A DNA stretch of 38,856 bases. Origin: Acidobacteriota bacterium. GTDB taxonomy: Bacteria; Acidobacteriota; Thermoanaerobaculia; UBA5066; Gp7-AA6. Of this stretch, positions 7,559 through 36,134 are shown piece after piece (position 1 is the stretch's first letter; each line of letters starts with the position of its first letter). Both the position numbers and the translations under genes were made by a program. The stretch covers positions 1 through 38,856 of the forward strand of contig DAHUXD010000058.1 of NCBI GenBank assembly GCA_027307335.1. Direction: 5' to 3'. The notes under the pieces are model-generated. The model worked only from the letters and a program-made list of their open reading frames with translations. It was not told where the DNA came from and ran no database searches.

Positions 7559-7566
7559 GCGTCGGA

Positions 7567-7572
7567 ATGATA
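7567..7572 (-). promoter_or_regulatory. Candidate -10 box (TATCAT), near-leaderless
   Basis: TATCAT on the minus strand ends eight bases before the GTG start at 7558. Transcription should begin at or just before the start codon. No clear -35 is visible. On the plus strand the same spacer holds only AT-rich TATGGATTAT (about 7623-7632), a weaker candidate for the divergent operon. Confidence 0.5.
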
Positions 7573-7661
7573 CGGGATCCCGCCTCCGGCGGCCCGCCTT
7601 CCCCGCCTCGACTTTCCGGGAATATGGATTATCCTTCGGCGTTTTTGAGACGGCTTCGAAA

Positions 7662-10854: not shown

Positions 10855-10861
10855 GGGTCCG

Positions 10862-13667: not shown

Positions 13668-13674
13668 TGCCGGC

Positions 13675-13680
13675 ATTGTA
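13675..13680 (-). promoter_or_regulatory. Candidate -10 box (TACAAT), leaderless
   Basis: TACAAT ends seven bases before the GTG at 13667. The spacing predicts an mRNA beginning at the start codon and decides the start choice of the pentapeptide gene. Confidence 0.6.
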
Positions 13681-13697
13681 ACCGCCCGGCCGTCGCG

Positions 13698-13821
13698 GCG
13701 GGGAAACGCCGCGTCGGAGTCCGGGCCGAGCGAAGCGAGGGCCGGGCTCCGAAGAATAGGGAGCGGGGAAACGCCGCGTCGGAGTCCGGGCCGAGCGATT
13801 GGAGGGCCGGGCTCCGATGAA
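13698..13821. repeat. Tandem pair of 59-base palindromic repeats
   Basis: Two near-identical copies (13698-13756 and 13763-13821, period 65) differ at only about four positions. Each holds an inverted repeat, TCGGAGTCCGGGCC against GGGCCGGGCTCCGA, around a short loop. They fill the spacer between two divergent promoters and look like REP/BIME-type elements. Two copies without regular unique spacers do not make a CRISPR array. Confidence 0.85.
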
Positions 13822-13837
13822 AGCCCGACAGGCGCGT

Positions 13838-13843
13838 TACAAT
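13838..13843 (+). promoter_or_regulatory. Candidate -10 box (TACAAT), leaderless
   Basis: TACAAT ends seven bases before the ATG at 13851, the same box and spacing as the divergent gene on the other strand. No Shine-Dalgarno precedes the ATG. Confidence 0.6.
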
Positions 13844-13850
13844 CGAAGCA

Positions 13851-15350: not shown

Positions 15351-15388
15351 GCCCCGCTCTCCCGAGCCCGTATGCGGGGTAGAACGGG

Positions 15389-15448
15389 ATCCCTCGGGCC
15401 TGCGGCCCTCGGGATGACGGCCGAGGGCGCATCGCGCTTCGGCCGTCA
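15389..15448. repeat. Double palindrome between convergent genes
   Basis: An imperfect hairpin (15389-15400 with 15404-15415, 10 of 12 pairs) is followed by a perfect ten-base inverted repeat TGACGGCCGA/TCGGCCGTCA (15415-15424 and 15439-15448). The last arm includes the TGA stop of the minus-strand Lon-N gene. It resembles a dispersed palindromic repeat and could terminate transcription from both sides, although no T-tract is present. Confidence 0.75.
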
Positions 15449-16087
15449 GTTCTTCCCGGGGTCCAGGTTCTTCGGCCGGTACGGCGCCAGGAAGTGCAGC
15501 CGCCCCTTCCACTCGAGCATGCGGCCGCGAAGAGCCTCGAACCGGCGGGGCAGGGAATCGGTCTCGAGGAGCGTCTGCAGCTCGGGCGGCGCGTAGCGGA
15601 GGCGCAGGGCGATCTCCGAGGCGAGACGTTCGGGCGAGAGGGATTCCTTCGGCAGCGGGGGCAGCTCGAGCTCGCGGGCCACCTCCCGGAACAGGTCCAC
15701 GGCGGAGGCGGTCTGCCGCTCCTCGTCGCCCGGTTCGGGGAACGGCGCGGTCGGCAACTCCTCGACACGGGCGACCCGGTACGGGTTGGCCGGGTCCTCG
15801 TCGATCACGCGGAAGCGGAAGCGCGCCTCGAGGAGGATGTTGTAGCGGCCGTCCGGGAGCGTCTCCGACTCCACGATCTCGCCCGCCGTGCCGACGCGAT
15901 GGATCGGCGGCGCCGCCTCGGCCGGATCGGCGCCCGCGGCGAGCATCGTCATGCCGATCGTCCGCTCGCCCGCGAGCGCGTCCGAGACCATCGCGCGGTA
16001 GCGCGGCTCGAAGATGTGGAGCGGGAGAAGCGTCCCCGGCAGCAGAACCACGTCCGCCAGAGGGAAGAGAGGAATCCTCCGCATCAT
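15446..16087 (-). CDS. Free-standing Lon protease N-terminal domain protein
   Basis: The protein has 213 residues consisting of the Lon substrate-binding (LON_substr_bdg) domain only. It begins IPLFPLADVVLLPGTLLPLHIFEPRYR, the classic start of that domain, and lacks the AAA and protease parts of Lon. Such single-domain proteins are common; their function is unknown but they probably bind peptides or unfolded protein. The ATG at 16087 overlaps the stop of the cytochrome c gene as ATGA, so the two are co-translated. That pairing of an exported cytochrome with a cytoplasmic protein-binding domain has no obvious logic. Confidence 0.93.
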   Translation of the reverse strand: MMRRIPLFPLADVVLLPGTLLPLHIFEPRYRAMVSDALAGERTIGMTMLAAGADPAEAAPPIHRVGTAGEIVESETLPDGRYNILLEARFRFRVIDEDPANPYRVARVEELPTAPFPEPGDEERQTASAVDLFREVARELELPPLPKESLSPERLASEIALRLRYAPPELQTLLETDSLPRRFEALRGRMLEWKGRLHFLAPYRPKNLDPGKN

Positions 16088-16491
16088 CGTCCGCCGGCCC
16101 CCTCCGCGCCGCCGCCCTTGCCGGCCGCGCGCGCGAGCGCAAGGACGTAGGTCGCCACCTGCCGGATCTCCTCGTCGGTCAGCTTCCCGGCGAAGGAAGG
16201 CATCGGATCGTCGCCGAGGCGGACCTGCCGCTCGATCGAGGCGAGAGTGCCGTCGGACTTCCACCGGCCGTTCCGCAGGTTCGCGTAGGGAAAGCGCCCG
16301 GCGACGATCGTCTTCCCGTCCCCGTTCGCGTTGTGGCAGGAGACGCAGCGTCGGTCGAAGATCCGGCGGCCGGCGGCCGCGTCGCGCTCGGCGCGCGCGA
16401 CCTCGGGGAGGGGCTCGTGGCGGCAGGCCGCCGCGACGGCGAGCGCCATCGAGAGCGCCGCGCCCGCGACTCGAGAGAACCGGAGGAGCAC
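16084..16491 (-). CDS. Small periplasmic cytochrome c, probable lipoprotein
   Basis: The protein has 135 residues. The signal peptide ends in an AAAC-type lipobox with C23, so it is likely lipid-anchored. The heme site is CVSCH at 49-53, and M97 (in DDPMPSF) is the likely sixth ligand, giving a class I mono-heme cytochrome of the CxxCH...MPxF type. The tail is Gly/Ala-rich. It should carry electrons in the periplasm. The GTG start has no Shine-Dalgarno and sits six bases after TAGACT. It is divergent from a ferredoxin gene. Confidence 0.92.
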   Translation of the reverse strand: MLLRFSRVAGAALSMALAVAAACRHEPLPEVARAERDAAAGRRIFDRRCVSCHNANGDGKTIVAGRFPYANLRNGRWKSDGTLASIERQVRLGDDPMPSFAGKLTDEEIRQVATYVLALARAAGKGGGAEGAGGR

Positions 16492-19101: not shown

Positions 19102-20052
19102 TCAGGCCCTCGTTCCTCGATACCATGCCACCGCTCGCCGCAGACCCTCCTCGAGGGACACGCGCGCCTGGAATCGCAGGATCCTCCGGGCCTTCTCCAC
19201 CGAGGCGAAGGTGACCGGAACGTCGCCGGGCTGCTGGGCCTGATGGTCGAGACGCGCGGAGCGGCCCGTCGCCCGCTCGACCGCCGCGACCAGCTCCGCG
19301 AGCGTCACCGGGTGGGCGCCGCCCAGGTTGACGATGTCGAAGCCGAGGGAGCTCTCCAGCGCCGCCTCGACGCCGTCCGCGATGTCGTCGATGTAGGTGT
19401 AGTCCCGGCGCGACGAGCCGTCTCCGTAGAAGGGGATGGGGGTATCCGATTCGAGGCATCGAATGAATCGAGCGATCGCCATCTCGGGCCGCTGCCGCGG
19501 CCCGTAAACCGTGAAGAACCGCAGGCAGACCGCCGGCAGGCCCCACAGGTGGCTGGCATTGAACACCTGGAGCTCGCCCGCCCGCTTGGTGGTGGCGTAC
19601 GGCGAGATGGGTGTTTCGATCGGGTCGTCCTCCGCGAAGGGGAGCTTGCTGTTGATGCCGTAGACCGAGGAAGAGGACGCGAACACGAACCGCGGCTTTC
19701 CGTGCGCGACGGCGGCCTCGAGGAGGTGCCACGTCGCCACGCAGTTGACCTCCTCGTAGAGGATGGGCTGAGTGAGCGAGGGCCGGACCCCCGCGCGGGC
19801 GGCCAGGTGCAGGACGCCGTCGAAGCCCTCCTCGGCGAAGAGGCGGAACACCAGGGCGCGGTCGCGAATGTCGCCTTCGACGAGCCGGTAGCGCGGATTC
19901 GCGAGGTGCGGAGCGACGTTCGCTCGCTTCGAGCGCGGATCGTAGAAGTCGTTGAAGTCGTCGAGGACGACGACCCGGTCGCCCCGCGCGAGCCGCCGGT
20001 CGGCGAGATGGGAGCCGATGAAGCCGGCTCCCCCCGTGATCAGAACCTTCAT
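19102..20052 (-). CDS. UDP-glucuronate 4-epimerase
   Basis: The protein has 316 residues and an SDR fold: GGAGFIG at 7-13, SSSSVYG at 126-132, and catalytic Y152xxxK156 in [11 protein letters not shown]. The DDFNDFYDP segment and the RAGVRPSL motif (about 86-93) are characteristic of enzymes making UDP-galacturonate from UDP-glucuronate rather than UDP-galactose from UDP-glucose. The start overlaps the mlaD stop as ATGA. It gives the operon a second branch from UDP-glucuronate. A UDP-glucose 4-epimerase is the main alternative. Confidence 0.88.
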
Positions 20053-21257
20053 TGCGGCGGCGCCGGGGTGGGTGACGCGGCGGGCAGCGCGGTCTGCGTC
20101 CGGATGTACGAGTTGTACTCCTTCCGGATGCCGGACTTCTGCCGGTCGGCGATCAGCCAGCGCAGGATCGCCGACTCGTTGACGCCGACCACGAGCCGGT
20201 TCGCGGCCTCGTACAGCTCCGGGTCGTTGACGAGCATGCCGGCCGTGCCCTGGCCGTCGTCGAGTTTCCGCGAGATCGAGTCGAGGTGCTGCGACATGCT
20301 CCGGAGGTTGCCCGTGAAGGCCTTCCCGAATTCCTGGTCGTGCAGCAGGATCGGGATCGTGCCGTGGCCCTTCTCGAGATTGTCGACGACCCGCGTGAGC
20401 CCCGCCGCGGCGAGCGAGAGGTTGTCGAGGAGGCCGTAGATCCGCTTCTTCCCTTCGGGGTCGGACAGGAGCGCCGGGATCGCGCCGCTGCCGGTGCGGA
20501 TGCCCTCGTCGATCTTCGCCAGCAGCGACTGCACCGAGTGGATCGCGCCCGCGAGCGCCTCGCTCGTGTCCTTGCCGTACTTCTCGTCGATGAGGAGCCT
20601 GCCGACGAGACCCTGGCCGTGCTCGACCTTCGCGAGGATCGCGTTGAGCGACCGCAGCGTGGCGTTGAAGTTGTTGCCGAGCTGCACGCTCTCCTCGCTG
20701 TTGGTCGTGATCGCGCCGAGGAAGCCCTCGCCCTGCTCCGTCCGGCCCAGGATGTTCTTGAGGGACTTGGCGATCGCCGAGAGGTCGGTGAGGAGATCGC
20801 CGCTGCCCTCGAGGAGCTTCTCGAGCCCCGCGCCCTGCGCCGCCGGAATCTCGCCGCCGACGGGAACCTCCGGCTCGTCCACCTTCCCGCCCTCGAGCTC
20901 GATGTACTTGTCGCCCAGGAGTCCGCGGGTCTTGATCGACGCGCGGGTGCTCTTGCGGATCATCGGGGCCCAGCGGCGCACGACGTCGTAGACGACCCGC
21001 ACCGTGCGGTCGGCGGGATCGCCCGAGAGGCGCACCTCGATGACGTTGCCGACGACGACGCCGTTGAGCGACACGTTGTTGCCGGCGATCAGACCCGCCG
21101 CCGACTCGAAGTGCGTCTCGTAGGGAAACTTGCTCCGGAAGAGGTTCGCCCTCTGGCCGATCATGAAGACGCCGATCATGGTCGCGGCGAGCGCGATGAG
21201 CACGACGATGCCCACGCGGAAACGCCGGCGGACCTGTGTCTCTGCTGGCACGCTCAA
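20049..21257 (-). CDS. mlaD: MlaD-like MCE-domain lipid transport protein with helical repeats
   Basis: The protein has 402 residues, about twice the length of E. coli MlaD. One membrane helix (15-34) is followed by an MCE domain (about 44-125, including GLIAGNNVSLNGVVVGNV and TRGLLGDKYIEL). From 170 to 350 five repeats occur with a Gly-rich GxGxxGxLLxD core, starting near 173, 211, 249, 294 and 332. The spacing is 38, 38, 45 and 38 residues. The long helices between them probably stack into a needle or tube. The tail is Pro/Ala-rich. The TTG start overlaps the mlaF stop (TTGA) and has GGGAGA just upstream. It should bind lipid in the periplasm for the MlaFE transporter. Confidence 0.92.
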   Translation of the reverse strand: MSVPAETQVRRRFRVGIVVLIALAATMIGVFMIGQRANLFRSKFPYETHFESAAGLIAGNNVSLNGVVVGNVIEVRLSGDPADRTVRVVYDVVRRWAPMIRKSTRASIKTRGLLGDKYIELEGGKVDEPEVPVGGEIPAAQGAGLEKLLEGSGDLLTDLSAIAKSLKNILGRTEQGEGFLGAITTNSEESVQLGNNFNATLRSLNAILAKVEHGQGLVGRLLIDEKYGKDTSEALAGAIHSVQSLLAKIDEGIRTGSGAIPALLSDPEGKKRIYGLLDNLSLAAAGLTRVVDNLEKGHGTIPILLHDQEFGKAFTGNLRSMSQHLDSISRKLDDGQGTAGMLVNDPELYEAANRLVVGVNESAILRWLIADRQKSGIRKEYNSYIRTQTALPAASPTPAPPQ

Positions 21258-22087
21258 TCTCCCTTCGGAACCGCCTGGAACACCCCCGTGCCGCAGGGGA
21301 ACCCCATGGCGCGGAAGTAGTCCCGGAGCAGCGGGCTGCTGCTCGAGGTCGCTTCGTCGAACGTCCCGATGAACTGGAACCGGCCCTGGTGGAGGAAGGC
21401 GACCCGCGTCGAGACGGTCCGCGCCGTCACGATGTCGTGGGTGACCACGACGGACGTCGTCTGAAGGCGATGGTTCACGTCCACGATGAGCTGCGCGATC
21501 TTCTCGGAGGAGACCGGATCGAGGCCGGTCGTCGGCTCATCGTACAGGATGACCTCGGGCTCGAGGGAGATCGAGCGCGCGAGGGCCACGCGCTTGCGCA
21601 TGCCGCCCGACAGCTCCGACGGCATCTTGCGCTGGATGCCCGGGAGGCCGACCATGTTCAGCGTCTCGGCGACGATCCGCGAGACCTCCGCCGGAGTCTT
21701 CTCCGTGTGCTCGCGGACGGGGAAGGCGATGTTGTCCTCGACGTTCATCGAGTCGAAGAGGGCGCCGCCCTGGAACAGCATGGCGAGCCGGCGGCGGACC
21801 GGCGAGAGCTCCTCCTCGGACAGCGCCACGATCGACTCGCCGAAGACGATCACGTCGCCCGCGTCGGGGCGGGTCAGCCCGTTGATGTGGCGGAGCGTGA
21901 CGCTCTTGCCGGTGCCGGAGGGGCCGAGCACGCAGAGGACCTCGCCGCGCCGGATCTGGAGGTTGACGCCCGCGAGGATGTCGCGGCCCGAGTAGGTCTT
22001 CCAGACCTCCTTGAACTCGACGATGACCTCGCCGCGGCGCGCGGCGCGCGCCTGCGTGACCTCCGCGGGAGAGACGGCCGTGCTCAT
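21254..22087 (-). CDS. mlaF: MlaF-like ABC ATPase of the lipid transporter
   Basis: The protein has 277 residues: Walker A GPSGTGKS at 55-62, signature LSGGMRKR at 159-166, Walker B ILYDEP at 180-185. The QGGALFDSMNVEDNIAFPVRE and SGGMRKRVALARS motifs are characteristic of MlaF. It powers phospholipid movement with MlaE and MlaD. The start codon overlaps the mlaE stop by one base (TGATG). A 20-residue N-terminal extension precedes the usual start. mlaB and mlaC are not in this window. Confidence 0.94.
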   Translation of the reverse strand: MSTAVSPAEVTQARAARRGEVIVEFKEVWKTYSGRDILAGVNLQIRRGEVLCVLGPSGTGKSVTLRHINGLTRPDAGDVIVFGESIVALSEEELSPVRRRLAMLFQGGALFDSMNVEDNIAFPVREHTEKTPAEVSRIVAETLNMVGLPGIQRKMPSELSGGMRKRVALARSISLEPEVILYDEPTTGLDPVSSEKIAQLIVDVNHRLQTTSVVVTHDIVTARTVSTRVAFLHQGRFQFIGTFDEATSSSSPLLRDYFRAMGFPCGTGVFQAVPKGD

Positions 22088-22914
22088 CAGAACGCGAGGA
22101 ACAGCTTGGTCAGGAAGAAGTCCGACACGAGGATCGATATGGATGCGAGGACGACCGTGCGCGTCGTCGACCGGCCGACCGCGGCGGCGCCGCCCTCGAC
22201 CTGGAGGCCGTTGTAGCAGCCGATCGCGGCGATCTCGAAGCCGAAGAACACGGTCTTGCCGAGGCCGCTGAAGATGTCGGAGATCGCGAGCTGCTGCCAG
22301 ATGCTGGTGATGTAGTCCTGGACGGTCATCCCGATCGAGGTCACCGCGATGCCGAGCCCGCCGATGATGCCGAGCACGTCCGCGATCGCCGTCAGGACCG
22401 GCATCATGAAGACGACGGCGAGCACGCGGGGGACGACCAGCCGGCGGATCGGCGAGATCGCCATCGAGCGCAGGGCGTCGACCTGCTCGGTGACGGTCAT
22501 CGAGCCGAGCTCCGCGGTAATTCCGGACCCGACCCGGCCGGCGACCATCAGCGCCGTCAGGATCGGCCCGAGCTCGCGGACGAGGGAGAGCGAGACGATG
22601 CGACCGATGAACTGTTTTCCGCCGAAGGCCTCGAGCGAATACGCGGTTTGGATGGCGAGCACCGCCCCCGTGACGAACGCCGTCAGTCCCGTGATCGCCA
22701 GCGACTTGACGCCGAGCTCGTCCATCTCGTTGACGAGCTCGCCCGAGTAGAAGGGCCGGCTGACGGAAGCGGCGATCGTCTCGCCGATCATCTGAAAGAG
22801 ACCGCCCAGGTACTCGACGGTCTGCGAGCCTTTGCGCCCGAAACGGTCGACGAACCGCAGCCAGCCGAGGTTGCGATAGAAGATCGCGGTTGCCGAGGGT
22901 TCGGGTTGCGCCAT
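22087..22914 (-). CDS. mlaE: MlaE-like ABC permease of the lipid transporter
   Basis: The protein has 275 residues. It has the MlaE family pattern: an amphipathic N-terminal segment, five hydrophobic helices, the RELGPILTALMVAGRVGSGITAELG motif (about 112-136) and the EQVDALRSMAISPIR coupling segment. It forms the membrane core with MlaF. It is the first gene of the operon. TAGAAT lies 11 bases before its ATG, and no strong Shine-Dalgarno is seen. It is divergent from plsC, whose product makes phosphatidic acid. Confidence 0.94.
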   Translation of the reverse strand: MAQPEPSATAIFYRNLGWLRFVDRFGRKGSQTVEYLGGLFQMIGETIAASVSRPFYSGELVNEMDELGVKSLAITGLTAFVTGAVLAIQTAYSLEAFGGKQFIGRIVSLSLVRELGPILTALMVAGRVGSGITAELGSMTVTEQVDALRSMAISPIRRLVVPRVLAVVFMMPVLTAIADVLGIIGGLGIAVTSIGMTVQDYITSIWQQLAISDIFSGLGKTVFFGFEIAAIGCYNGLQVEGGAAAVGRSTTRTVVLASISILVSDFFLTKLFLAF

Positions 22915-22925
22915 GGGGACGGCGC

Positions 22926-22931
22926 ATTCTA
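22926..22931 (-). promoter_or_regulatory. Candidate -10 box (TAGAAT) of the mla-sugar operon
   Basis: TAGAAT on the minus strand ends 11 bases before the mlaE ATG. Transcription would start only a few bases before the codon. Confidence 0.5.
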
Positions 22932-22984
22932 TCCCTCCGATCCGCCCCTGTAAACGCAGGCACCATCGCGACTTGCGGCTCTGT

Positions 22985-22990
22985 TAGTCT
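22985..22990 (+). promoter_or_regulatory. Candidate -10 box (TAGTCT) of plsC
   Basis: TAGTCT ends ten bases before the GTG at 23001. It supports this start over the ATG at 22890, which lies inside the divergent mlaE gene. Confidence 0.45.
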
Positions 22991-23000
22991 CTCGCGGCGA

Positions 23001-23740
23001 GTGGGCTTTCTCCGGTCGCTCGCGGTCTGGGGCGTCATCTGCGTGGCCACGATCCTGTTCGGGCTGCCGGCGATTCCCTTCGCGCTCGTCCCGCCGCGCG
23101 GGGAGTGGTTCCTCAAGTTCGCGCGCGGCTGGGCCCGGCTGATCCTCCGCGTCTCGGGCGTGCGGGTGAGCCTTCTCCATGCCGAGCGGCTGAATCCGGG
23201 GACCAGCGTCGTGCTCGCGGCCAACCACGAGAGCTTCTACGACATCCTCGTGCTGCTCGCCGCTCTTCCGATGTCCGTCCGCTTCCTCGCGAAGCGCAAC
23301 CTCTTCCGCCTGCCGTTTCTCGGCTGGTCGATCGCGGCGGCCGGGTTCATCCCCGTCGACCGGCACACGCGCTCGCGCAACGCCGCCGTCGTGGACACCG
23401 CCCTCGCCCGGCTCCAGAAGGGCCGCTCCCTCGTCGTCTTTCCCGAGGAGACGCGGACCCGCGACGGCGAGCTCCTTCCCTTCAAGACCGGGGCCGCGCT
23501 CATCGCGCTCAAGGCCGGGCTGCCGCTCCTGCCCCTCGGTCTCGCGGGCACTCTGCGCATCCAGCGCCGCGGCGGCTTCACGATCACGCCGTCTCGCGTC
23601 GTGCTCGCCGTGGGAGATCCGATCGAGACGGCGGGACGGCCGGTGACGGAGCGCGGCGCGCTCACCGACGAGCTGCGGCGGCGGATCGGGGTCCTGCGCG
23701 AGGAGGCGAGGGCCGACGTAGAATCGCCCCCGGAGGCACG

Positions 23741-25370: not shown

Positions 25371-28300
25371 TTGCTCGCGCCGCTCCTCCTGGCCGTTGCC
25401 GCGGTTCTGTCCTCCTCCGACGTCGCGACGCTCCAGCAGGCCCGCAACGTCGGCCTCGCGGCGCTCGAGGACGGAAACCTCGTCGAGGCGTCGAAGCGCT
25501 TCGAAACGGCGCGGCGGCTCGCCCCCGAGGACCCGCTCGGCTGGGCGGACGGCGCCGTGGCCGCGATGCGCGCGAAGGACCCCGGCGCGGCCGGCAAGCT
25601 GCTCGCCGAGGCCCTGCGCCTGTCCCCCGGCGACGCCCGGGTCCTGGACCTCGAGGCCACGCGGCGGGAGCTCGCGGGCGACCGCGCCGGGGCGATCGCG
25701 TTCTACGAGAAGGCGGCCGCTGCCTCCGCGTCGGACGTGGCGGCGCGCTGGAACGCGGCGCGGCTCTCGGCCGCGGCCGACGATGCGGCCGGACGCGCGG
25801 CGGCCGTGCGCCAGCTCGAGGCCGCCCTCGCGGCGGCGCCGGCGAACATCTTCCTGCTCTGCCGTCTCGCCGAGTGGCAGCGGGACGCCGGGAACGCCGC
25901 CGCGGCGCTCGCCGCCGCCGACCGGATCGCGGCGCTCGTGCCCGACGATCCGAAGCTCGACGCGGCGCTGTCGGAGGGGAAGCGCGCGCTCGCGTCGGGC
26001 GACGCTCACGCGGCGTCGCTGAAGTACCGCGTCGCGGAGAACCTGCTGCGCGCAACGTCCCGCTATCAGCAGGCGCGCCACGACGTGGAGCCCGGCGTCG
26101 TGGGCCTGCCGCTCGAGGACTGGGGACCGAGGGTCGCGGCGGCGGTGCGCGCGCACGCGGGCGCGCCCGTGCCGGTCACGTTCGCGCCTCGAAAGGACGC
26201 GGGGCTCGCGGCGCTCTCGGGGATCGCCGTCGTGCGCGCGGCCGGCAAGGACGGTCGCGACCTCGCGGTCGCCGGCGCGCACGGAATCGCGGTCGCCGCG
26301 GCCGGCCCGTCGGGCTACCGCGCCGGCGCACCGCTGCCCGACTCGACGCCGGCCACGGACCTGGCGGTCGCCGACGTGACGAACTCGGGAGCGCTCGACC
26401 TCGTGGCGCCGGGGGCGCTCTGGGTCCGCGAGGGCGAGGGCTTCCACCGCGTGGCGATCGCTCCGGGAGAGCGCGTCGTGCCGCTCGACTTCGACTCGGA
26501 CGGCGACCTCGACCTCTACGTCTCGTCGAAGGACGGCGACCGCCTCCTCCGCAACAACCTCGACGGCACCTGGACCGACGCGACCGCCGCGTCGGGGCTG
26601 CCCGCGCACCTCCGCTCGCTCCTCGCCGTTGCGGCGGACCTCGACCGGGACGGCGATCCGGACCTCCTGCTCGCCCGGCCGGAGGGAGGGTTCGTGCTCT
26701 ACGACAACCTGCGCGGCGGCCGCTTCGCGGCGAAGGAGGCCGGCCTGCCGAAGACCGGGCTCGTCTCGGACGCCGCGGCCGGCGACCTCGACGGCGACGG
26801 GCGCCTCGACCTGGTGTGGGTCGCGGACGGGCGCGCCGCCGCCGCCCTAAACAAGGGCGACGGCACGTTCCGGCCGCCCGTCGACCTCGGACCGGCGGCG
26901 TCGGTCCTCCTGTTCGACTACGACAACGACGGCTTCCTCGACGTCTTCCTCGCGAACCCGTCCGGCCCGTCGGCGCTCCTGCGCAACGACGGAACCGGCC
27001 GCCTCGCCGCGGCCTCCGTCGGCGAGCTGCCGCCGGCGCGCGCCGCGGAGGCGGTCGACGCCGACGGGGACGGCGACCTCGACCTCGCGCTCGTCGCGCC
27101 GGGCGGGACGGTCAGCCTCCTCGAGAACCGCGGCGGCAACGCGAACGGCTGGATCGACCTCGCGCTCGAGGGCCTGCCGACGGGATCGGCGAAGGTCAAT
27201 CGCCTGGGCTACGGGTCGGAGGTCGAGGCGCGCGCGCAGGACCTCTACGTCTACCGCGTCGCCGCGCGTCCGGTCACGAGGCTCGGCCTCGGCGGGCGCC
27301 GCCGCGCCGACGTGCTTCGCGTCGTGTGGACCAACGGCGTGCCGCAGAACGCGCTCGACCCGCCGCTGCGCACCGTCGTGAAGGAGGTGCAGCAGCTGAA
27401 GGGCTCGTGTCCGTTCCTCTACGCGTTCGACGGAGCGCGGTGGCGCTTCGTCACCGACGTCCTCGGACGCGCGCCCGCGGGCCTCCTCTACGACGGCGTG
27501 CACCAGGCGGCGGCGGACACGCGCGAGTGGCTGGTCGTTCCCGGCGCGTGGCTGGCCGCGTCGGGCCCGGTGCGCGTGCTCGATCTGACCGAGGAGCTCT
27601 GGGAGGCCGCGTACGTCGACCTCGCCGAGCTGCGCGCGGTCGACCATCCGGCGGGCACCGCGCTCGTCCCCGACGAGAAGATGGTGCCGCCGCCCTTTCC
27701 GCCGAAGCGCCTGCTCACGGTGGCGCGACCGCACGTGCCGCGCGCGACGGACGAGGAGGGCCGGGACCGCACCGCGGAGATCGCCGCGGAGGACGGCGTG
27801 TATCTGTCGGGGTTCGCGCCGACGCGCTACCAGGGCCTCGTCGAGCCGCACGCGCTCGTGCTCGAGCTCCCCGAGGCCGGCGGCGGGGAAACGCCGAAGA
27901 GAGTCGTGCTCTATTTCACCGGCTGGATCTTCTACGCCGACACCTCGATCAACGTCTCGCTCTCGCAGCGGCGCGACGTCCGGGCGGAGCCGCCCGTGCT
28001 CGAGGTGCCCGACGGCCGCGGCGGATGGAAGACCGCGATCGCCGCGATGGGATACCCGGCGGGGAAGACGAAGACGATGGCGGTCGACCTGACCGGCGTC
28101 CTCGACCCGGGGGATCCCCGCGTGCGCATCCGCACGAACCTCGCGATCTACTGGGACCGCATCGCCTACACCGTGGACGATCCACCGGTCCCGCTGCGCA
28201 CGGCGGTCCTCCCGCTCGTCTCGGCGGAGCTCTTCGATCGCGGCTTCTCGCGGATGGAGCGCGCGTCCGAGGACGCGCCGCAGGTCTTCGTTCATGACGA

Positions 28301-28709
28301 CGTCTCGCGCGGACCGCGATGGGCGGACATGGCCGGCCTGTACACGCGGTTCGGCGACGTCCGGGAGCTCCTCGCGGCCGCCGACGATCGCACGGTCGTC
28401 ATGAAGGGCGGCGACGCCGTGCGTCTGACGTTCGACGCCTCCGCGCTGACCCCGCCGCCCGAAGGCTGGGTCCGGGACTACGTCCTGGTCCTCGACGGGT
28501 GGGACAAGGACGCCGACAAGAACACGGTCGCGGGTCAGACCGTCGGACCGCTGCCGTTCCACGGCATGGACGACGCGCGGTACGGTGAGCTCGCGTTCCC
28601 GGACGATGCCGCGCACCGCGAGTTCGTGCGCGAGTGGCTGACGCGCCCCGGCGGACCCGAGGCGTTCCGCGACGCGGTCCGGGACGCCGGCCTCGCGAGG
28701 CCGGAGTGA
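25371..28709 (+). CDS. Exported TPR - FG-GAP propeller - UnbV-like fusion protein with long C-terminal domain
   Basis: The protein has 1112 residues and a TTG start six bases after an in-frame stop, followed by a short signal-like hydrophobic run. Residues about 20-235 are TPR-like helix pairs. About 330-600 carry FG-GAP/VCBS repeats with calcium loops of the DxDxDGxxD type (DFDSDGDLD near 374, DYDNDGFLD near 516, DADGDGDLD near 563). An ASPIC/UnbV-like segment follows at about 612-660. The final 430 residues start with SCPFLYAFDGARWRFVTDVLGRAP (about 679), a domain shared with secreted repeat proteins of this type but of unknown function. It should be periplasmic or surface-exposed. A palindrome in the last codons leads straight into the next gene, GTGA overlap. 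Confidence 0.85.
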   Translation: MLAPLLLAVAAVLSSSDVATLQQARNVGLAALEDGNLVEASKRFETARRLAPEDPLGWADGAVAAMRAKDPGAAGKLLAEALRLSPGDARVLDLEATRRELAGDRAGAIAFYEKAAAASASDVAARWNAARLSAAADDAAGRAAAVRQLEAALAAAPANIFLLCRLAEWQRDAGNAAAALAAADRIAALVPDDPKLDAALSEGKRALASGDAHAASLKYRVAENLLRATSRYQQARHDVEPGVVGLPLEDWGPRVAAAVRAHAGAPVPVTFAPRKDAGLAALSGIAVVRAAGKDGRDLAVAGAHGIAVAAAGPSGYRAGAPLPDSTPATDLAVADVTNSGALDLVAPGALWVREGEGFHRVAIAPGERVVPLDFDSDGDLDLYVSSKDGDRLLRNNLDGTWTDATAASGLPAHLRSLLAVAADLDRDGDPDLLLARPEGGFVLYDNLRGGRFAAKEAGLPKTGLVSDAAAGDLDGDGRLDLVWVADGRAAAALNKGDGTFRPPVDLGPAASVLLFDYDNDGFLDVFLANPSGPSALLRNDGTGRLAAASVGELPPARAAEAVDADGDGDLDLALVAPGGTVSLLENRGGNANGWIDLALEGLPTGSAKVNRLGYGSEVEARAQDLYVYRVAARPVTRLGLGGRRRADVLRVVWTNGVPQNALDPPLRTVVKEVQQLKGSCPFLYAFDGARWRFVTDVLGRAPAGLLYDGVHQAAADTREWLVVPGAWLAASGPVRVLDLTEELWEAAYVDLAELRAVDHPAGTALVPDEKMVPPPFPPKRLLTVARPHVPRATDEEGRDRTAEIAAEDGVYLSGFAPTRYQGLVEPHALVLELPEAGGGETPKRVVLYFTGWIFYADTSINVSLSQRRDVRAEPPVLEVPDGRGGWKTAIAAMGYPAGKTKTMAVDLTGVLDPGDPRVRIRTNLAIYWDRIAYTVDDPPVPLRTAVLPLVSAELFDRGFSRMERASEDAPQVFVHDDVSRGPRWADMAGLYTRFGDVRELLAAADDRTVVMKGGDAVRLTFDASALTPPPEGWVRDYVLVLDGWDKDADKNTVAGQTVGPLPFHGMDDARYGELAFPDDAAHREFVREWLTRPGGPEAFRDAVRDAGLARPE
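28687..28704 (+). promoter_or_regulatory. Perfect palindrome at a gene junction
   Basis: CCGGCCTCGCGAGGCCGG is a fully self-complementary 18-mer ending one base before the GTG of the next gene. The hairpin would cover the ribosome-binding region, so translation of the downstream gene likely depends on ribosomes unfolding it while finishing the upstream one. Translational coupling is inferred. Confidence 0.45.
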
Positions 28710-30385
28710 GGCGGCTCCTGCTCTGTCTCGCCGCCTCCGGCGCGATCGCGGCCGGCGCCGCCCCGCCGCCGGGCGTCTTCCGCGACGTGACGAAGTCCTC
28801 CGGAGTCTCGATGCGCGTCCAGGGCGACCTGATGCGCCTGAAGCTGATCCCGACGATGATCGGCGGCTGCGCGATCGGCGACTTCGACGGCGACGGCCGC
28901 CCGGACCTGTACGTCACCAACTCGATCCCGCGCTGGGGCAAGCCCAACGCGGATTCCTGCGGGCGCCTCTACCGCAACGTCGGCGGCGGCCGCTTCGAGG
29001 ACGTGACCGCCCGCTCCGGGATCCACGCCTGCGGCCTCGGGATGGGCGCGTTCTGGGTCGACCTCGACGGCGACGGCAAGCTCGACCTGTACCTGACCAA
29101 CGTCGGCCCGAACGCCGTGTGGTGGAACCGCGGCGACGGGACGTTCGAGGAGGGGAAGGACACCGGCCTCGAGGACCCGCTCTTCTCGGTCGGCGCCGCG
29201 TTTCTCGACGTCGACGGCGACGGCCGCGTGGACGTCGCGGTCGCGAACTACCTCGACTCGACGCCCGAGTGGGAGGCGGCGCAGCCGCAGTTCCAGCTGC
29301 GCGTCCCCGAGGACTACGTCGGGCAGCCGTCGCACCTCTACCGCAACCTCGGCGGCCGCCGCTTCCAGGACGTGACCAGGGAAGCGGGGCTCGCCGTGCC
29401 GCCGGTCGAGACGAAGACGCTGTCGATCGCCGTGCTCGACTACGACGGCGACGGCCACGACGACCTCTACTTCGTCAACGACCGGGTGCCGAACCGCCTC
29501 TTCCGCAATCGCGGCGACGGCACCTTCGAGGAGACCACCGCGGAGACGGGCGCCGGCACGCTGGGCGACCACCCGCGCGCGGGGATGGGCGTCGCGGTCG
29601 GTGATCCGTTCGGCGACGGGCGCGAGAGCCTCTTCGTCACGAACTTCGGCGCCGAGCCGAACAGCCTCTACCGCAACGTGGACGGCGTGATCTTCGAGGA
29701 CGCGGGCGCCGCGTCGGGCATCGCGGACGTCGGCATGCCGTCGGTTCGGTGGGGCACGCACTTCGCGGACTTCGACAACGACGGCTGGCCGGACACGTAC
29801 GTCGTCGGCGGTCACCTCGCGCCGCGTCTGCCGCGCTGGCTCGGCCACTACAAGAGCGGCGGCGCGTCCTACGTCGAGGCGGGGGACTCCGCCTACGCCC
29901 AGCGCGCGTTCCTCGTGCACAACCTCGGGGGCGGGAAATTCGCCGAGTGGACGGAGTCGGGCGACTTCGGCCGCGCGCGGATGTCGGCGCGGGGCACCGC
30001 GGTCGCGGACCTCGACGGGGACGGCGCGCTCGACCTGGTGGTCGTCGACCTGGACGGGCCGGTGAGGATCTTCCGCAACGAGATCGGGGCGCGCGGGCGC
30101 TGGATCGCGGTCGAGCCCGTCGCGGGCGCGGACGGAAAAACGGTGCTCGGCACGCGCGTCCACGTGACCGCCGGCGGGCGAACGCAGACGCAGGCGTATC
30201 GCGTGTCGCCATCCTACGCCTCGGGTTCGCTCGTCCCGCTCCACTTCGGGCTCGGCGAGGCGGACGCCGCCAGCGTGGCCGTGCGCTGGCCCGATGGCCG
30301 CACGCAGGAATACTCGAACGTCCCGGCGGGGCGGACGTACCGGGTGCGTGCCGGCGGCGAGCTCGAACCCGTCGCTCCGCGCTGA
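28706..30385 (+). CDS. Secreted CRTAC1-type FG-GAP/UnbV protein
   Basis: The protein has 559 residues with a signal peptide (about 1-18). It is almost entirely FG-GAP/VCBS blades, with calcium-binding DxDGDGxxD loops (DFDGDGRPD, DLDGDGKLD, DVDGDGRVD, DYDGDGHDD, DFDNDGWPD, DLDGDGALD). It ends in an ASPIC/UnbV domain (GTRVHVTAGGRTQTQ... to RWPDGRTQEY). One blade has DPFGDGRES in place of the aspartate loop. The fold is a seven-bladed beta-propeller. The GTG start is fixed by GTGA overlap with the previous gene. Bacterial CRTAC1 proteins have no known biochemical role. Confidence 0.9.
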   Translation: MRRLLLCLAASGAIAAGAAPPPGVFRDVTKSSGVSMRVQGDLMRLKLIPTMIGGCAIGDFDGDGRPDLYVTNSIPRWGKPNADSCGRLYRNVGGGRFEDVTARSGIHACGLGMGAFWVDLDGDGKLDLYLTNVGPNAVWWNRGDGTFEEGKDTGLEDPLFSVGAAFLDVDGDGRVDVAVANYLDSTPEWEAAQPQFQLRVPEDYVGQPSHLYRNLGGRRFQDVTREAGLAVPPVETKTLSIAVLDYDGDGHDDLYFVNDRVPNRLFRNRGDGTFEETTAETGAGTLGDHPRAGMGVAVGDPFGDGRESLFVTNFGAEPNSLYRNVDGVIFEDAGAASGIADVGMPSVRWGTHFADFDNDGWPDTYVVGGHLAPRLPRWLGHYKSGGASYVEAGDSAYAQRAFLVHNLGGGKFAEWTESGDFGRARMSARGTAVADLDGDGALDLVVVDLDGPVRIFRNEIGARGRWIAVEPVAGADGKTVLGTRVHVTAGGRTQTQAYRVSPSYASGSLVPLHFGLGEADAASVAVRWPDGRTQEYSNVPAGRTYRVRAGGELEPVAPR

Positions 30386-31181: not shown

Positions 31182-31619
31182 TCAGGCGCCGATCTTCCGC
31201 TCGAAGACCTTCTGCTCCTTGATTTCCCGGAAGCGCTCACGCCGGTAGAAATCGTGCGCCCGCTTTCGCACGACGTTGCAGCGCGCGCGCAGCGTGCTGC
31301 AGTCGCGCTCCGCGGCCCACGCCTCGGCCGCCGCGACGAGCGCCGCCCCGATGCCGCGGCCCCGCTCGGTCTCGGCGACGACGAGCCCGGTGATCTCGAC
31401 GCTCGCGGGCGCCTCGAAGACGCGGGTCCGGCTCACCTGGATCCAGCCGACCGCGCCGCCGCCCTCGTCCGCGACGAGGAGCGTGTGGTCGGCGTGGCGG
31501 GAGAGCTCGGCGAAACGCGAGGCGGCTTCGCCGGGGGTCATGGGGTAGCCGAGCTCGGTCGAGAGCGCGGCGAGACGGGGCGCGTCGGCCGGAGCGGCCG
31601 GACGGATCGAGACGCTCAC
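31182..31619 (-). CDS. GNAT-family N-acetyltransferase
   Basis: The protein has 145 residues in a complete GNAT fold. The acetyl-CoA-binding loop RGRGIGAAL lies near residues 91-99, after the V(V/A)ETE strand. The C terminus carries the common YRRERFREIKEQKVFERKI pattern of GNATs. The GTG start overlaps the upstream propeller gene's stop as GTGA, so it is made with that protein. The substrate is unknown. Confidence 0.9.
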   Translation of the reverse strand: MSVSIRPAAPADAPRLAALSTELGYPMTPGEAASRFAELSRHADHTLLVADEGGGAVGWIQVSRTRVFEAPASVEITGLVVAETERGRGIGAALVAAAEAWAAERDCSTLRARCNVVRKRAHDFYRRERFREIKEQKVFERKIGA

Positions 31620-33331
31620 GGCCTCCCGCCCTCCTCCGAGACGATCCGCCGGGCGCCGCCCGGAACGTCCTTGAGCGTCTGCGTCGCGCCGTCCGGCCAG
31701 CGGATCTCCAGCGCGTCGATCTTCGAGGCGGTGCCGAGGCCGAACGTGAGCGTCTTCTCCGAAGCCGAGAGATAGGACTGGCCGCCGGAGACCTGCTGCG
31801 CAAGCGTCCGGCCGCCGAACGAGGCGGTCACCCGGGCGCCGACCGCGTCGCGGTTGCTCTTCCCCGCGCCCACGAGCTTCAGCCGGACGCTCTTTTCCGG
31901 AGCGTTCGTCGGGTTCAGATACACGCGCGCCGGGCCGCCGTTCTCGACGATCACGAGGTCGAGGTCGCCGTCGCCGTCGAGGTCGGCGTACGCCGCACCG
32001 CGCGCGACGAGAGGCTGCGCGAGATCTCCCGAGCGGGCGCCGAGCGGGACGAACTTCCCGTCGCCGGCGTTCAGGTACAGGACGGGCGCCTGCCGGTACG
32101 CGACGTCCTTCTGCACCTCCTGAACCGTCGGCTCGACGTGGCCGTTGGCGAGGAGCAGGTCCATTCGGCCGTCGAGGTCCGCGTCGAGGAAGAGGACGCC
32201 GAACGTCAGGTCGAGGAACGAGGTCGGGCCGACGCCGCTCCTCGGCGACTCGTCGAGAAAGACCTCTCCGGTGTCGGTCCAGTAGAGCGACTTGAGCTCG
32301 TTCGAGAAATTGCCGATCGCGACCGCGCTGCCCCTGCCGTTCTTCACGTCCGCCCACGCGGCGCCCATCGCGCCTCGCGCGCGCCCGGCCTCGTCGACCG
32401 CGATCCCGGCCGGAATGCCGACGTCCTCGAAGGTGCCGTCGCCCTTGTTCCGGAAGAGATTGTTCGGCGCGGTGTCGTTCGAGACGAGGAGGTCGACGCG
32501 CCCGTCGCCGTCGAAGTCCCACGGGGCGACGCCGAGCGCCTTCTGGTTCTCGTTGAAGACGCCCGCCTTCTTCGTCACGTCCTCGAAGCGGCCGTTGCCG
32601 AGGTTGCGGTAGAGGTGCGAGGACGTGCCGGGGTATCGCTCGGGCGTGCAGTAGGACTTCGTCTTCCCGTCGAGCGTGCAGTAGAGGTCCTTGCCGGGGC
32701 TCCAGTCGACGTAGCGGCCGACGTACAGGTCGAGCCTGCCGTCCCCGTCGTAGTCCAACCACGCCGAAGACGTCCCCCAGCCCGAGTCCGCGACGCCGGC
32801 CGCCTTCGCCACGTCCTCGAAGCGTCCGCCGCGGTTGTGGAAAAGGTGGTTCCCGCCGAGGGCCGTCACGTACACGTCGTCCTTCCCGTCGTTGTCGTAG
32901 TCGGCGACCGAGGCGCCCATCCCGTAGAAGACCTTCTCGAGCCCGGCCTCGCGCGTCACGTTCCGGAAGCGCGGCAGGCCGTCGGGCCCGTTCCCCTCGT
33001 TGCGGTACAACGCGAGCGAGGACCGCTGCGCCGCCGCGCGCGGGTCGCCGGGCCAGTACGCGCCGGAGACGAACAGGAGGTCGGGCCGGCCATCGCCGTC
33101 GTAGTCGAGGACGGCGACGCCGCCGCCCATGGTCTCGGGCATCCACTTCTTCCCCGTGGCGCCGGTGACGTGGACGAAGTCGACGCCGATCTCCTTCGCC
33201 TTCTCCGCGAACGCGAGCGCGGGCGGCGGCGTCGGCGCGGGCGTCGGAGGGGGAGCGACGGCGACGGGCTCCGACTTCCGGCATCCCGCGAGCACACCGA
33301 GGGCCGCCGCGAGGAGGAAGGAGCGTCGCAC
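31616..33331 (-). CDS. CRTAC1-type FG-GAP/UnbV lipoprotein
   Basis: The protein has 571 residues with a lipoprotein signal ending LAGC (C17), then a Pro/Ala spacer. FG-GAP blades with calcium loops (DYDGDGRPD, DYDNDGKDD, DYDGDGRLD, DFDGDGRVD, DADLDGRMD, DLDGDGDLD) are followed by a C-terminal UnbV domain ending RWPDGATQTL. It is similar in layout to the protein at 28706-30385 but lipid-anchored. TAGACT ends eight bases before its GTG, so it can be transcribed independently of the pentaheme gene just upstream. The GNAT gene is coupled behind it. Confidence 0.9.
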   Translation of the reverse strand: MRRSFLLAAALGVLAGCRKSEPVAVAPPPTPAPTPPPALAFAEKAKEIGVDFVHVTGATGKKWMPETMGGGVAVLDYDGDGRPDLLFVSGAYWPGDPRAAAQRSSLALYRNEGNGPDGLPRFRNVTREAGLEKVFYGMGASVADYDNDGKDDVYVTALGGNHLFHNRGGRFEDVAKAAGVADSGWGTSSAWLDYDGDGRLDLYVGRYVDWSPGKDLYCTLDGKTKSYCTPERYPGTSSHLYRNLGNGRFEDVTKKAGVFNENQKALGVAPWDFDGDGRVDLLVSNDTAPNNLFRNKGDGTFEDVGIPAGIAVDEAGRARGAMGAAWADVKNGRGSAVAIGNFSNELKSLYWTDTGEVFLDESPRSGVGPTSFLDLTFGVLFLDADLDGRMDLLLANGHVEPTVQEVQKDVAYRQAPVLYLNAGDGKFVPLGARSGDLAQPLVARGAAYADLDGDGDLDLVIVENGGPARVYLNPTNAPEKSVRLKLVGAGKSNRDAVGARVTASFGGRTLAQQVSGGQSYLSASEKTLTFGLGTASKIDALEIRWPDGATQTLKDVPGGARRIVSEEGGRP

Positions 33332-33356: not shown

Positions 33357-36134
33357 CTACGGCGCGGAGGGGGCGCGGGAGGAGCCAGAGGCGGCGGCCG
33401 ACGCCGTCGCGTACGACCACTGCGCGGCTTCGCTCGGGACCGGCGGATGCGCCTTCGTCAGGTAGCCGCGGTCGGTCTCGTACCCCTTCGGGCCCATCGC
33501 CGAGACCCAGGGCGCGGGCGGACCGGGAGGCGGGTCGGCTTCCGCGTGGACGTGGATCGGGAGCGACTCGCGGTTCGCCCACGGGTTCTCGAGGCGGTAC
33601 TCCCCGGGCACCGCGCGGATCGATTCGTCGTCCTTGTACTTGCGGTACGCGGCGTCCTGGAGGTCGGCGTTCTTCCGATCGCCCATCGCGCGATACACGC
33701 GCATGAGGTTGTAGTGCGCGTTCAGGTCCTCGGGGTCGATCGCGAGCGTCTTGCCGTAGGCCGCGACGGCCTCGGGGAGCCGGCCCGCGAGCCAGTCCAC
33801 GAGGCCGAGGTTGTTCCACGCGACGCGGTCGAGCGGGAACTTCTCGAGCACCGCCTCGAGGTCCTTCTCGGCGTCGTCGAGCCGGCCCTCGTCCTTCGCG
33901 ACCGTCGCGCGGAAGAACGCGGTCTTGCCCCAGCCGGGGCGGCGCTTCTCCGCCTCCGCGAGAGAGGCCTTCGCGTCGGCGAGGCGGCCCTCCGCGATCT
34001 CGGCGCGGGCGCGATTGAGAGGCCCGTCGGGCTGGTCGGGCGCGAGCTCGGCGACCTTCGTCCAAGCGCGCGCGGCGCCCTTCAGGTCGCCCTGCAGGAA
34101 GAGGCCGATGCCGTAGTCGTTCCAGCGGAGCCAGAGGGCGTCGGTATTGCCGCGAGCGGTGGTTGGCGGGAGGTTGCCCCTCACCCCCGGCCCCTCTCCC
34201 GGGGGGAGAGGGGAGTCGCGGAGCGGCAGCACTACGGCGTCTTCGGCGAGCGTCGTCACAGGCAGCGACGGATACGCCGCCCCGAGCGAGAAGGTCGTGT
34301 AGTCGCGCGAGAACTTGCGGTAGTGCGTGCCCGCGCGAAGCGTGATGGGGCCCCTCGCGTCCTCCGGGACGCGCAGGCGGTAGTGGACGACCCGCGCCGC
34401 TCCCGGTCCGATCCCGTTGTTGTAGAGCGGCACGCGGATGTCCTGAGGCTGGCGGCGGTCCATGTATTCCCCGTGCTGGTCGATGACGAGCGTCGAGAGC
34501 CGGTCGGCCGCCGCGTCGAGGCGGCCGTCCCCGCCGAGCACTCCGCTCGCGAAGATCCGCTCGCCGCCGCTGTCCGCCTCGAGAGACACCCACGTCTCGT
34601 TCGAGTCCGCGGTGCCGTTCGTGTACGGATGGCCGATGCCGCGCGTGCGCAGGACGACCTCGACGTCGACCGTCTCGCCCGGGCGGACGGCCACCGGCGC
34701 GTCGCCGAGCACGTCGAGCCGCTCGCCCCGGCGGATGGCGAACAGGTCGACGGTCAGGACCTTGTTCTTCAGGAACTCCTCGATCTTCTTCTGCGTCTCG
34801 CGGTCGCCGCGCACGAAGGGAAGCGCCGTGTTCGCGGCGGGGAAGACGTGATCGTGGAGGAAGCCCTTCTGATTGCCGAACTCGTCCGAACGGAAGGCGG
34901 GCAGGTGGCAGTCGCGGCAGGCCTTCGGCTTCGGCGGGTCGTAGAAGGAGCGGACCGCGCGTCCCGACACACCCGAGTCGTACCAGCCGTCGTAGTGGTC
35001 CTGCCCGCGCATCCAGCGATAGCCGTTCAGCGCGGGGATCAACGCCACCTTGTGGCAGGTCGAGCAGAACTCCGGCGTCCGCATGAACGGCTTCATGAAC
35101 GTCTTCCGGTGGAGCGACGGCTCCATGCGGATCAGGAGCCGATTGACCCAGCGCAGCGGCGGCGAGGTCGAGAACGCGAACGGGTACTGCTTCGACTCCT
35201 CGATGACGTAGGCGCCGTTGCCGGTGACGTCCTTGACCTCGGCGATCGAGTGGCAGGACATGCAGGTCAGCCCCTGCTGCGCCTCCCACGAGTCGTAGGA
35301 GAACGACGCCTGCGTCGCCTTGCCCATCTGCCCGGTGAAGAGGACGACAGGGTCGTGGCAGCCCGAGCACCACTTCGTCCGCTCGCGGCCGACCTGGTCG
35401 GCCACTAACTCGACCGCCTTCCGGTAGAACGGATTGTTGAAGGACGAGAACCGGTGCGCCGACCGCTCCCACTGGTGGAAGGAGTCGGGATGGCACTCCC
35501 GGCAGTAGCCGTTCGCGGCGAGGCGCTTCCCGTCGAGGAGCCCCTGGTCGAACGTCTCGCTGGCCGCGGGGTAGAAGACGGTGTCGCCGCCGACGTTCGC
35601 GATCCGCTTCGGCGGCTTCTCGAGCCGCGCGACGGCCGCCATCGCCGCCAGGAACACCGCCACGGCGCCGCCCCACGCGAACAGGCGCCGGAACTGGAGC
35701 TGGTGGACGTGCGCGCGCCGGTGGAGGATGAACGCGACGAGCGCGAGCGGCACGGCCGAGACGTGCGCGAGCCACACGGCGCGGTGGTTGAGCGTGGAGC
35801 CGCGCACCGTCATGAAGAGGCCGGTCGCCACGCACACGACCGCGAGGACCACGATCGCGAGGCCCGCCGCCTTCGCCCGCCGGTTCCACATCCGGATCAT
35901 CCGGCGCGCGTGGGTGAGCGCGAAGACGAAGAACGGGATCGCGATGAGCAGCCCCAGGGTCAGGTGGAGCAGTAGCATCGCGTAGAAGAAGCTCGTGTCG
36001 CGCGTGAAGGCCGCGAGGTAGATCGAGTTGGCCGCAATCAGTCCGAGCGGCACGAGCAGAATGCGGTAGAGCCGCCGCTGCCAGGGGCGGAGGACGCCGG
36101 CAGGGCGGACGGCTGCGGGACCCGGTGCGCTCAT
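33357..36134 (-). CDS. Membrane pentaheme cytochrome c with TPR domain
   Basis: The protein has 925 residues. Five hydrophobic helices are predicted (about 24-42, 51-73, 89-109, 121-138, 152-169). H57 and H75 bracket the second and H124 and H142 the fourth, each 18 apart, a possible b-type di-heme arrangement. The periplasmic domain has five heme c sites: CRECH 211-215, CSGCH 256-260, CMSCH 291-295, CSTCH 357-361, CRDCH 406-410. A beta-rich region follows, then TPRs (about 669-830), and a Pro/Ala-rich tail. An in-frame palindromic repeat lies near residues 640-655. The role is probably quinol-linked electron transfer to an unknown acceptor. It starts eight bases after TAAAAT, and is followed by a lipoprotein gene. 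Confidence 0.88.
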   Translation of the reverse strand: MSAPGPAAVRPAGVLRPWQRRLYRILLVPLGLIAANSIYLAAFTRDTSFFYAMLLLHLTLGLLIAIPFFVFALTHARRMIRMWNRRAKAAGLAIVVLAVVCVATGLFMTVRGSTLNHRAVWLAHVSAVPLALVAFILHRRAHVHQLQFRRLFAWGGAVAVFLAAMAAVARLEKPPKRIANVGGDTVFYPAASETFDQGLLDGKRLAANGYCRECHPDSFHQWERSAHRFSSFNNPFYRKAVELVADQVGRERTKWCSGCHDPVVLFTGQMGKATQASFSYDSWEAQQGLTCMSCHSIAEVKDVTGNGAYVIEESKQYPFAFSTSPPLRWVNRLLIRMEPSLHRKTFMKPFMRTPEFCSTCHKVALIPALNGYRWMRGQDHYDGWYDSGVSGRAVRSFYDPPKPKACRDCHLPAFRSDEFGNQKGFLHDHVFPAANTALPFVRGDRETQKKIEEFLKNKVLTVDLFAIRRGERLDVLGDAPVAVRPGETVDVEVVLRTRGIGHPYTNGTADSNETWVSLEADSGGERIFASGVLGGDGRLDAAADRLSTLVIDQHGEYMDRRQPQDIRVPLYNNGIGPGAARVVHYRLRVPEDARGPITLRAGTHYRKFSRDYTTFSLGAAYPSLPVTTLAEDAVVLPLRDSPLPPGEGPGVRGNLPPTTARGNTDALWLRWNDYGIGLFLQGDLKGAARAWTKVAELAPDQPDGPLNRARAEIAEGRLADAKASLAEAEKRRPGWGKTAFFRATVAKDEGRLDDAEKDLEAVLEKFPLDRVAWNNLGLVDWLAGRLPEAVAAYGKTLAIDPEDLNAHYNLMRVYRAMGDRKNADLQDAAYRKYKDDESIRAVPGEYRLENPWANRESLPIHVHAEADPPPGPPAPWVSAMGPKGYETDRGYLTKAHPPVPSEAAQWSYATASAAASGSSRAPSAP
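34177..34215. repeat. In-frame palindromic repeat inside the pentaheme gene
   Basis: CCCCTCTCCC-GGG-GGGAGAGGGG (34191-34213) is a perfect ten-base-pair hairpin, preceded by CCCCTCACCCCC. This resembles the dispersed palindromes that insert into genes and are translated as a Pro/Gly-rich patch. Here it is read as PLPPGEGPGVRG just before the TPR domain, keeping the frame. Confidence 0.8.

Follow-up and report, generated by a model that had tools for sequence, protein, structure and literature searches.

A pentaheme cytochrome with a predicted diheme b membrane module, an Ig-like domain and TPRs, regularly paired with an FG-GAP/UnbV_ASPIC gene

The window, which is the whole 38,856-nucleotide stretch analysed from an Acidobacteriota contig (DAHUXD010000058.1), encodes on its reverse strand a cytochrome of 925 amino acids (33357..36134, ATG start). 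A short N-terminus is followed by five transmembrane (TM) helices (residues 17-171), five CxxCH motifs (211-410), an Ig-like beta domain (~460-636) and a TPR domain (~667-840), an order abbreviated here as b-c5-Ig-TPR. Heme b is very likely to be bound in the N-terminal module, and the presence of two b hemes in this protein is likely. Our preferred reading, held with reasonable rather than high confidence, is that of a one-chain oxidoreductase linking quinol/quinone to its pentaheme part and acting with a propeller protein encoded next to it. The individual parts are of known kinds. It had been supposed from the sequence that no described protein combines them in this order, and the searched literature agrees, the nearest analogues having another order or lacking b hemes (PMC6295460). 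The order together with a conserved FG-GAP/UnbV pairing was likewise not found in open-licence literature, and no second copy of the gene was found in its own genome.

The membrane module (residues 17-171, 35622..36086, minus strand) is predicted to be a diheme b domain on the basis of conservation and of an AF2 model built for it in isolation (mean pLDDT 85). The five hydrophobic helices that the sequence-only reading placed ahead of the c hemes were confirmed as hydrophobic segments and are modelled as helices, delimited by hydrophobicity and AF2 at residues 17-42, 48-80, 85-111, 118-142 and 148-171. In b cytochromes the spacing of the paired histidines is usually 13-14 residues. Here, TM2 carries H57 (35964..35966), a candidate heme-b ligand on the outer side, and 18 residues later H75 (35910..35912), a candidate ligand of the second heme b on the cytoplasmic side, and TM4 carries H124 (35763..35765), again an outer candidate, with H138 (35721..35723) as a candidate ligand of the second heme b 14 residues after it (all on the minus strand). 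Since 18 residues complete five helix turns and 14 fall just short of four, each pair would face one side of its helix. The loops TM2-3 and TM4-5 bear Arg and hold more Arg/Lys than the opposite loops, which argues for a cytoplasmic N-terminus, a c domain on the outside and TM2 and TM4 running parallel from outside to inside. By loop charge, then, the two TM helices that each bear two conserved histidines are parallel. With this topology H57/H124 would form an outer, periplasm-near site and H75/H138 an inner, cytoplasm-near one, and TM5 would carry the c domain out to the periplasm. Residues of a quinone site were not recognised.

In an alignment of 30 sequences, histidine occupies the position of H57 in 30/30, H124 in 30/30, H138 in 21/30 and H142 in 1/30, and across 44 diverse b modules H57, G61 and H124 are the sole invariant residues. 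The earlier proposal had paired H57 with H75 and H124 with H142, both 18 residues apart; the TM2 pair holds, whereas H142 is ruled out as a ligand by its lack of conservation, the 18-residue spacing on TM4 being accidental and the real one being the 14 residues of H124/H138. Among 55 distinct modules, both inner histidines are present at the 18/14 spacing in 33, neither in 13 and only one in 9, and most lineages retain them. In a held-out test on 19 Planctomycetota members, fetched afterwards and unused earlier, H-18-H plus H-14-H was present in 19/19, as against a coincidence of both spacings in ~2% of draws from shuffled modules, and the combination is thus beyond chance. Modules without H75 and/or H138 form one Acidobacteriota-dominated clade, of which one member keeps both, and the second b heme would therefore not be essential to the cytochrome family. 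The suggested diheme module on TM2 and TM4 stands up to the check first put forward for it, the conservation of its histidines in homologues, and is qualified by the decay of H75/H138 in this clade. A statistical co-variation of H75 with H138 was rejected: its Fisher p of 9e-6 ignores ancestry and, because the di-heme state changes only about twice on the tree, the co-occurrence carries no statistical weight.

Relatives with the whole architecture were found in Acidobacteriota, a Zixibacteria MAG, Planctomycetota, Verrucomicrobia and Gammaproteobacteria. When evenly sampled genomes were searched, with a match at E up to 1e-40 defining a family member, carriers numbered 40 among the 149 genomes from Acidobacteriota and 20 among the 79 from Planctomycetota, and the family is widespread in these two phyla. 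The single carriers among 79 Verrucomicrobia and 150 Proteobacteria genomes are each the seed genome itself. Three architectures were distinguished, namely class A (b-c5-Ig-TPR, including the window protein), class B (signal peptide-c5-Ig-TPR, with no b module) and class C (b-c5-Ig, with no TPRs), and only three changes are required to place them on the c5-Ig tree. Family members that naturally lack the b module, the second His pair or the TPRs offer built-in controls. An independent b subunit encoded near the b-less members, of the kind expected from a Rosetta stone relationship, was not found with a b-module HMM, and a neighbour with 4-5 TM helices in two of their loci (L089 and L090) was rejected as a separate b subunit, having no paired histidines. 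A small monoheme cytochrome c gene lies directly downstream of b-less members (L078:10222-10677, L080:9336-9830) and is a possible alternative electron partner.

The predicted operon partner of the cytochrome lies directly downstream (31616..33331, minus strand) and encodes a beta-propeller protein of 571 amino acids with an N-terminal lipobox (LAGC), in which both FG-GAP (145.4 bits against a Pfam cut-off of 26.9) and UnbV_ASPIC (71.8 against 23.4) were recognised. Such a gene directly follows the cytochrome in 44 of the 47 b-containing loci with enough flank (L034, at a contig edge, was left out), comprising 17/17 of the first class A set with the window, 10/11 of class C and 17/19 in Planctomycetota. 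In class B it follows the cytochrome in both fetched loci of one lineage and in 0/13 of the other. The TPR domain itself (33615..34136, minus strand), noticed in the sequence-only reading, was confirmed by PF07719 (47.7 bits against the Pfam cut-off of 27) and by VIA-align matches with Z up to 19.8. The idea that it docks a partner is unsupported for this gene: FG-GAP/UnbV genes are adjacent in 14/15 members that have no TPRs, and the TPRs are thus not what ties the pair together. The downstream protein belongs among the CRTAC1-like FG-GAP/UnbV_ASPIC proteins. A CRTAC1-family gene flanks hydrazine-synthase-like multiheme genes (PMC12758564), and by this analogy the association of propeller and multiheme proteins in itself has precedent. 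In some loci of class A, another TPR+FG-GAP gene is located upstream of the cytochrome. The window holds a second FG-GAP group (25371-30385, plus strand), made up of a TPR+FG-GAP gene (25371-28709) and an FG-GAP/UnbV_ASPIC gene (28634-30385), which is related to the genes directly upstream of the cytochrome in other genomes.

The sequences themselves establish the architecture, the conservation and spacing of the ligand-type histidines and the pairing of the two genes. For heme-b occupancy, the reaction with quinone, the direction of electron flow, the end substrate and the role of the propeller, we infer the following scheme. TM2 and TM4 would hold two b hemes, one between H57 and H124 in the outer half of the membrane and one between H75 and H138 in the cytoplasmic half. 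The b module would exchange electrons with the quinone pool, most likely as a quinol oxidiser, and relay them to the five periplasmic c hemes. From the c5-Ig part, with its fold like that of the Thermochromatium tepidum pentaheme c552, they may continue to the exported FG-GAP/UnbV_ASPIC propeller, or the two proteins could act jointly, with the TPR domain as an accessory platform in some branches. The host genome also carries genes for a bc-type cytochrome b, an NrfD-type protein and a terminal oxidase, and the cytochrome is thus likely an extra branch rather than the sole outlet for quinol. The same genes could use electrons fed into quinone, as they would if the flow were reversed, with a periplasmic donor reducing the pentaheme part, directly or via the propeller, and the b module reducing quinone. 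No sequence feature fixes the direction, and CymA as well as the CbcL/MtoC/MtrH homologues have been proposed to be bidirectional (PMC6295460); even so, we regard this reversal as rather unlikely.

In the pentaheme part, the five c heme motifs are CRECH (211-215, 35490..35504), CSGCH (256-260, 35355..35369), CMSCH (291-295, 35250..35264), CSTCH (357-361, 35052..35066) and CRDCH (406-410, 34905..34919), all on the minus strand and, in the translated ORF, at exactly the residues first noted for them. The first is CxxCH or Cx4CH in all relatives, and the other four also recur among them. The Ig-like beta domain (34227..34757, minus strand), located between the c hemes and the TPRs and absent from the domains listed earlier, is recognised by its strands in the AF2 model and by the match of the whole model to 5ze8, the low-potential pentaheme c552 of T. 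tepidum. Foldseek with the whole model placed 5ze8 first (E 1.4e-7, TM 0.58 on target), and a profile of 42 relatives searched against PDB sequences matched 5ze8 at 2.2e-9 over hemes 1-3. Like the window protein, 5ze8 and the PHC/ExtKL-type pentaheme cytochromes carry an Ig-like domain behind five c hemes, but 5ze8 has neither a membrane b module nor TPRs. Cytochrome_C554 (PF13435) was matched at residues 211-296 (31.2 bits against a gathering score of 20.8), and the ExtKL model (NCBIfam NF040886) scored 11 bits, far under its cut-off of 250.

Across 42 c5-Ig sequences, all heme-binding Cys/His (with CxxCH or Cx4CH at heme 1) and the histidines H227, H342, H429 and H502 are invariant. H502 (34629..34631, minus strand) belongs to a GH motif of the Ig domain, which shows a weak alignment to His of 5ze8 and of the selenoprotein cytochrome MccSep, and judging from this alignment the Ig domain likely supplies a distal heme-c ligand, with H502 as the candidate. 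There are thus four universal non-CxxCH histidines for five hemes; a fifth distal ligand (H380 or H427 in the window protein) is not shared by all relatives, both positions being variable, and one heme may therefore be open in some of them. This is one ground for regarding the protein as an enzyme rather than a wire, in which a c heme without a universal distal ligand acts on a small substrate, as in c554, HAO or MccA, and the b module provides the link to quinone. The weak profile similarity to c554 (1.2e-4), MccSep (5e-4) and MccA (0.065) points the same way. However, the window protein has both H380 and H427, sufficient to give each of the five hemes a distal ligand, no residues of a substrate site were recognised, and the nearest solved structure has no assigned role (PMC11976967); an enzyme of this kind seems fairly improbable. 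A link of H380 to the second b heme was also rejected: the two nearly coincide within class A (20 vs 22, with a single exception), but Glu occupies this position in seven of the held-out di-heme members and there are no independent events on the tree. The family motif around H502, GHxFPxGTxD (residues 501-510, 34605-34634), aligns weakly with GHSIPDGX of MccSep (PDB 9wt8), where X, a non-standard residue and probably selenocysteine, lies in the same motif as the conserved His. Selenocysteine was also considered for the in-frame stops of some relatives; in L099 and L125, the two checked by coordinates, the stops fall at the end of the ORF and it was dismissed there.

Returning to the b module, its best VIA-align matches are the designed heme bundles m4D2 (Z 11.3) and 4D2 (Z 11.2), the latter derived from an earlier design modelled on bc1 cytochrome b (PMC10400981). 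Next come, among others, hydrogenase-1 cytochrome b (Z 10.2), cytochrome b6 (Z 9.4), SpNOX, NOX5, superoxide oxidase and formate dehydrogenase gamma. The scores to heme-b bundles (Z 8.8-11.3) are weak evidence from a model, Z values of 8-13 being common for helical bundles and non-heme bundles and ion channels being interleaved among the matches. All Foldseek matches of the module against the PDB had E > 0.4, the b-module profile retrieved nothing heme-related from PDB sequences, and the VIA search of the whole model was swamped by TPR matches. In Pfam, the module of the window protein itself matched no heme-b family. The leading sub-threshold matches of its relatives include the cytochrome b561-type Ni_hydr_CYTB (PF01292, 6.6e-5) and DUF4405 (PF14358, 4.9e-5), reaching at most 23-24 bits against cut-offs of 30.1 and 26.7, respectively; DUF4405 binds heme b in vitro (PMC11334425). 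The module resembles DUF4405, cytochrome b561-like and bc1-type cytochrome b bundles in its helical core with His pairs and in the sub-threshold Pfam matches of its relatives, may resemble them in fold, and differs from them in reaching no Pfam cut-off and in the 18-residue spacing on TM2. That the N-terminal helices are a heme-free anchor, their histidines serving metal or quinone binding or helix packing, would suit the absence of any heme-b family above its Pfam cut-off, the loss of H75/H138 in one clade and the replacement of the module by a signal peptide in other members, but is very improbable given that an anchor would not need the invariant, in-membrane H57 and H124 on two parallel helices, and that the exact spacing of H75/H138 recurs across phyla.

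Among known routes between the quinone pool and multiheme cytochromes, CbcL, MtrH and MtoC are similar in that a single chain combines multiheme c and membrane parts, two b hemes being putatively assigned to the latter, and they have been proposed as quinol oxidases (PMC6295460). In CbcL, however, the c hemes come first and are followed by six C-terminal TM helices like those of HydC/FdnI, whereas the window protein begins with five TM helices and continues with c5, Ig and TPR; the order of N-terminal c hemes and C-terminal TM b module shared by CbcL, MtrH and MtoC is therefore reversed here. In CymA (NapC/NirT) and ImcH the membrane part does come first, with the multiheme c part behind it in the periplasm, but in both the membrane part is described without b hemes, consisting of a short TM domain or of three helices (PMC6295460), and NapC/NirT (PF03264) was absent from the window protein at E up to 1.

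It is conceivable, and we suggest it tentatively, that the family represents a class not described before, a quinone-linked outlet for electrons in the inner membrane alongside CymA, CbcL and ImcH, in which an N-terminal diheme b module, a pentaheme c part, an Ig domain and optional TPRs have an FG-GAP/ASPIC propeller as regular partner or as terminal redox or substrate module. If true, this would add another architecture to the few known routes that join multiheme cytochromes to the quinone pool, and would do so in two phyla, Acidobacteriota and Planctomycetota, whose respiration is poorly known and which both carry the family. Furthermore, orphan FG-GAP/UnbV_ASPIC propellers would gain a redox context, testable because the cytochrome and the propeller form a compact two-gene unit.

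Elsewhere in the window, an unusually long ORF of 1303 amino acids (12231-16142, minus strand) has eight pentapeptide-repeat stretches (PF00805, 257 bits). Consecutive genes for an ABC ATPase, an ABC_transp_aux/DUF7088 protein and a DUF4340 protein (7422-12223, plus strand) resemble gliding-motility-type ABC exporters. Finally, a gene with an MlaD domain adjoins an ABC transporter gene (20049-23224, minus strand), the two forming a lipid-transport-like pair.
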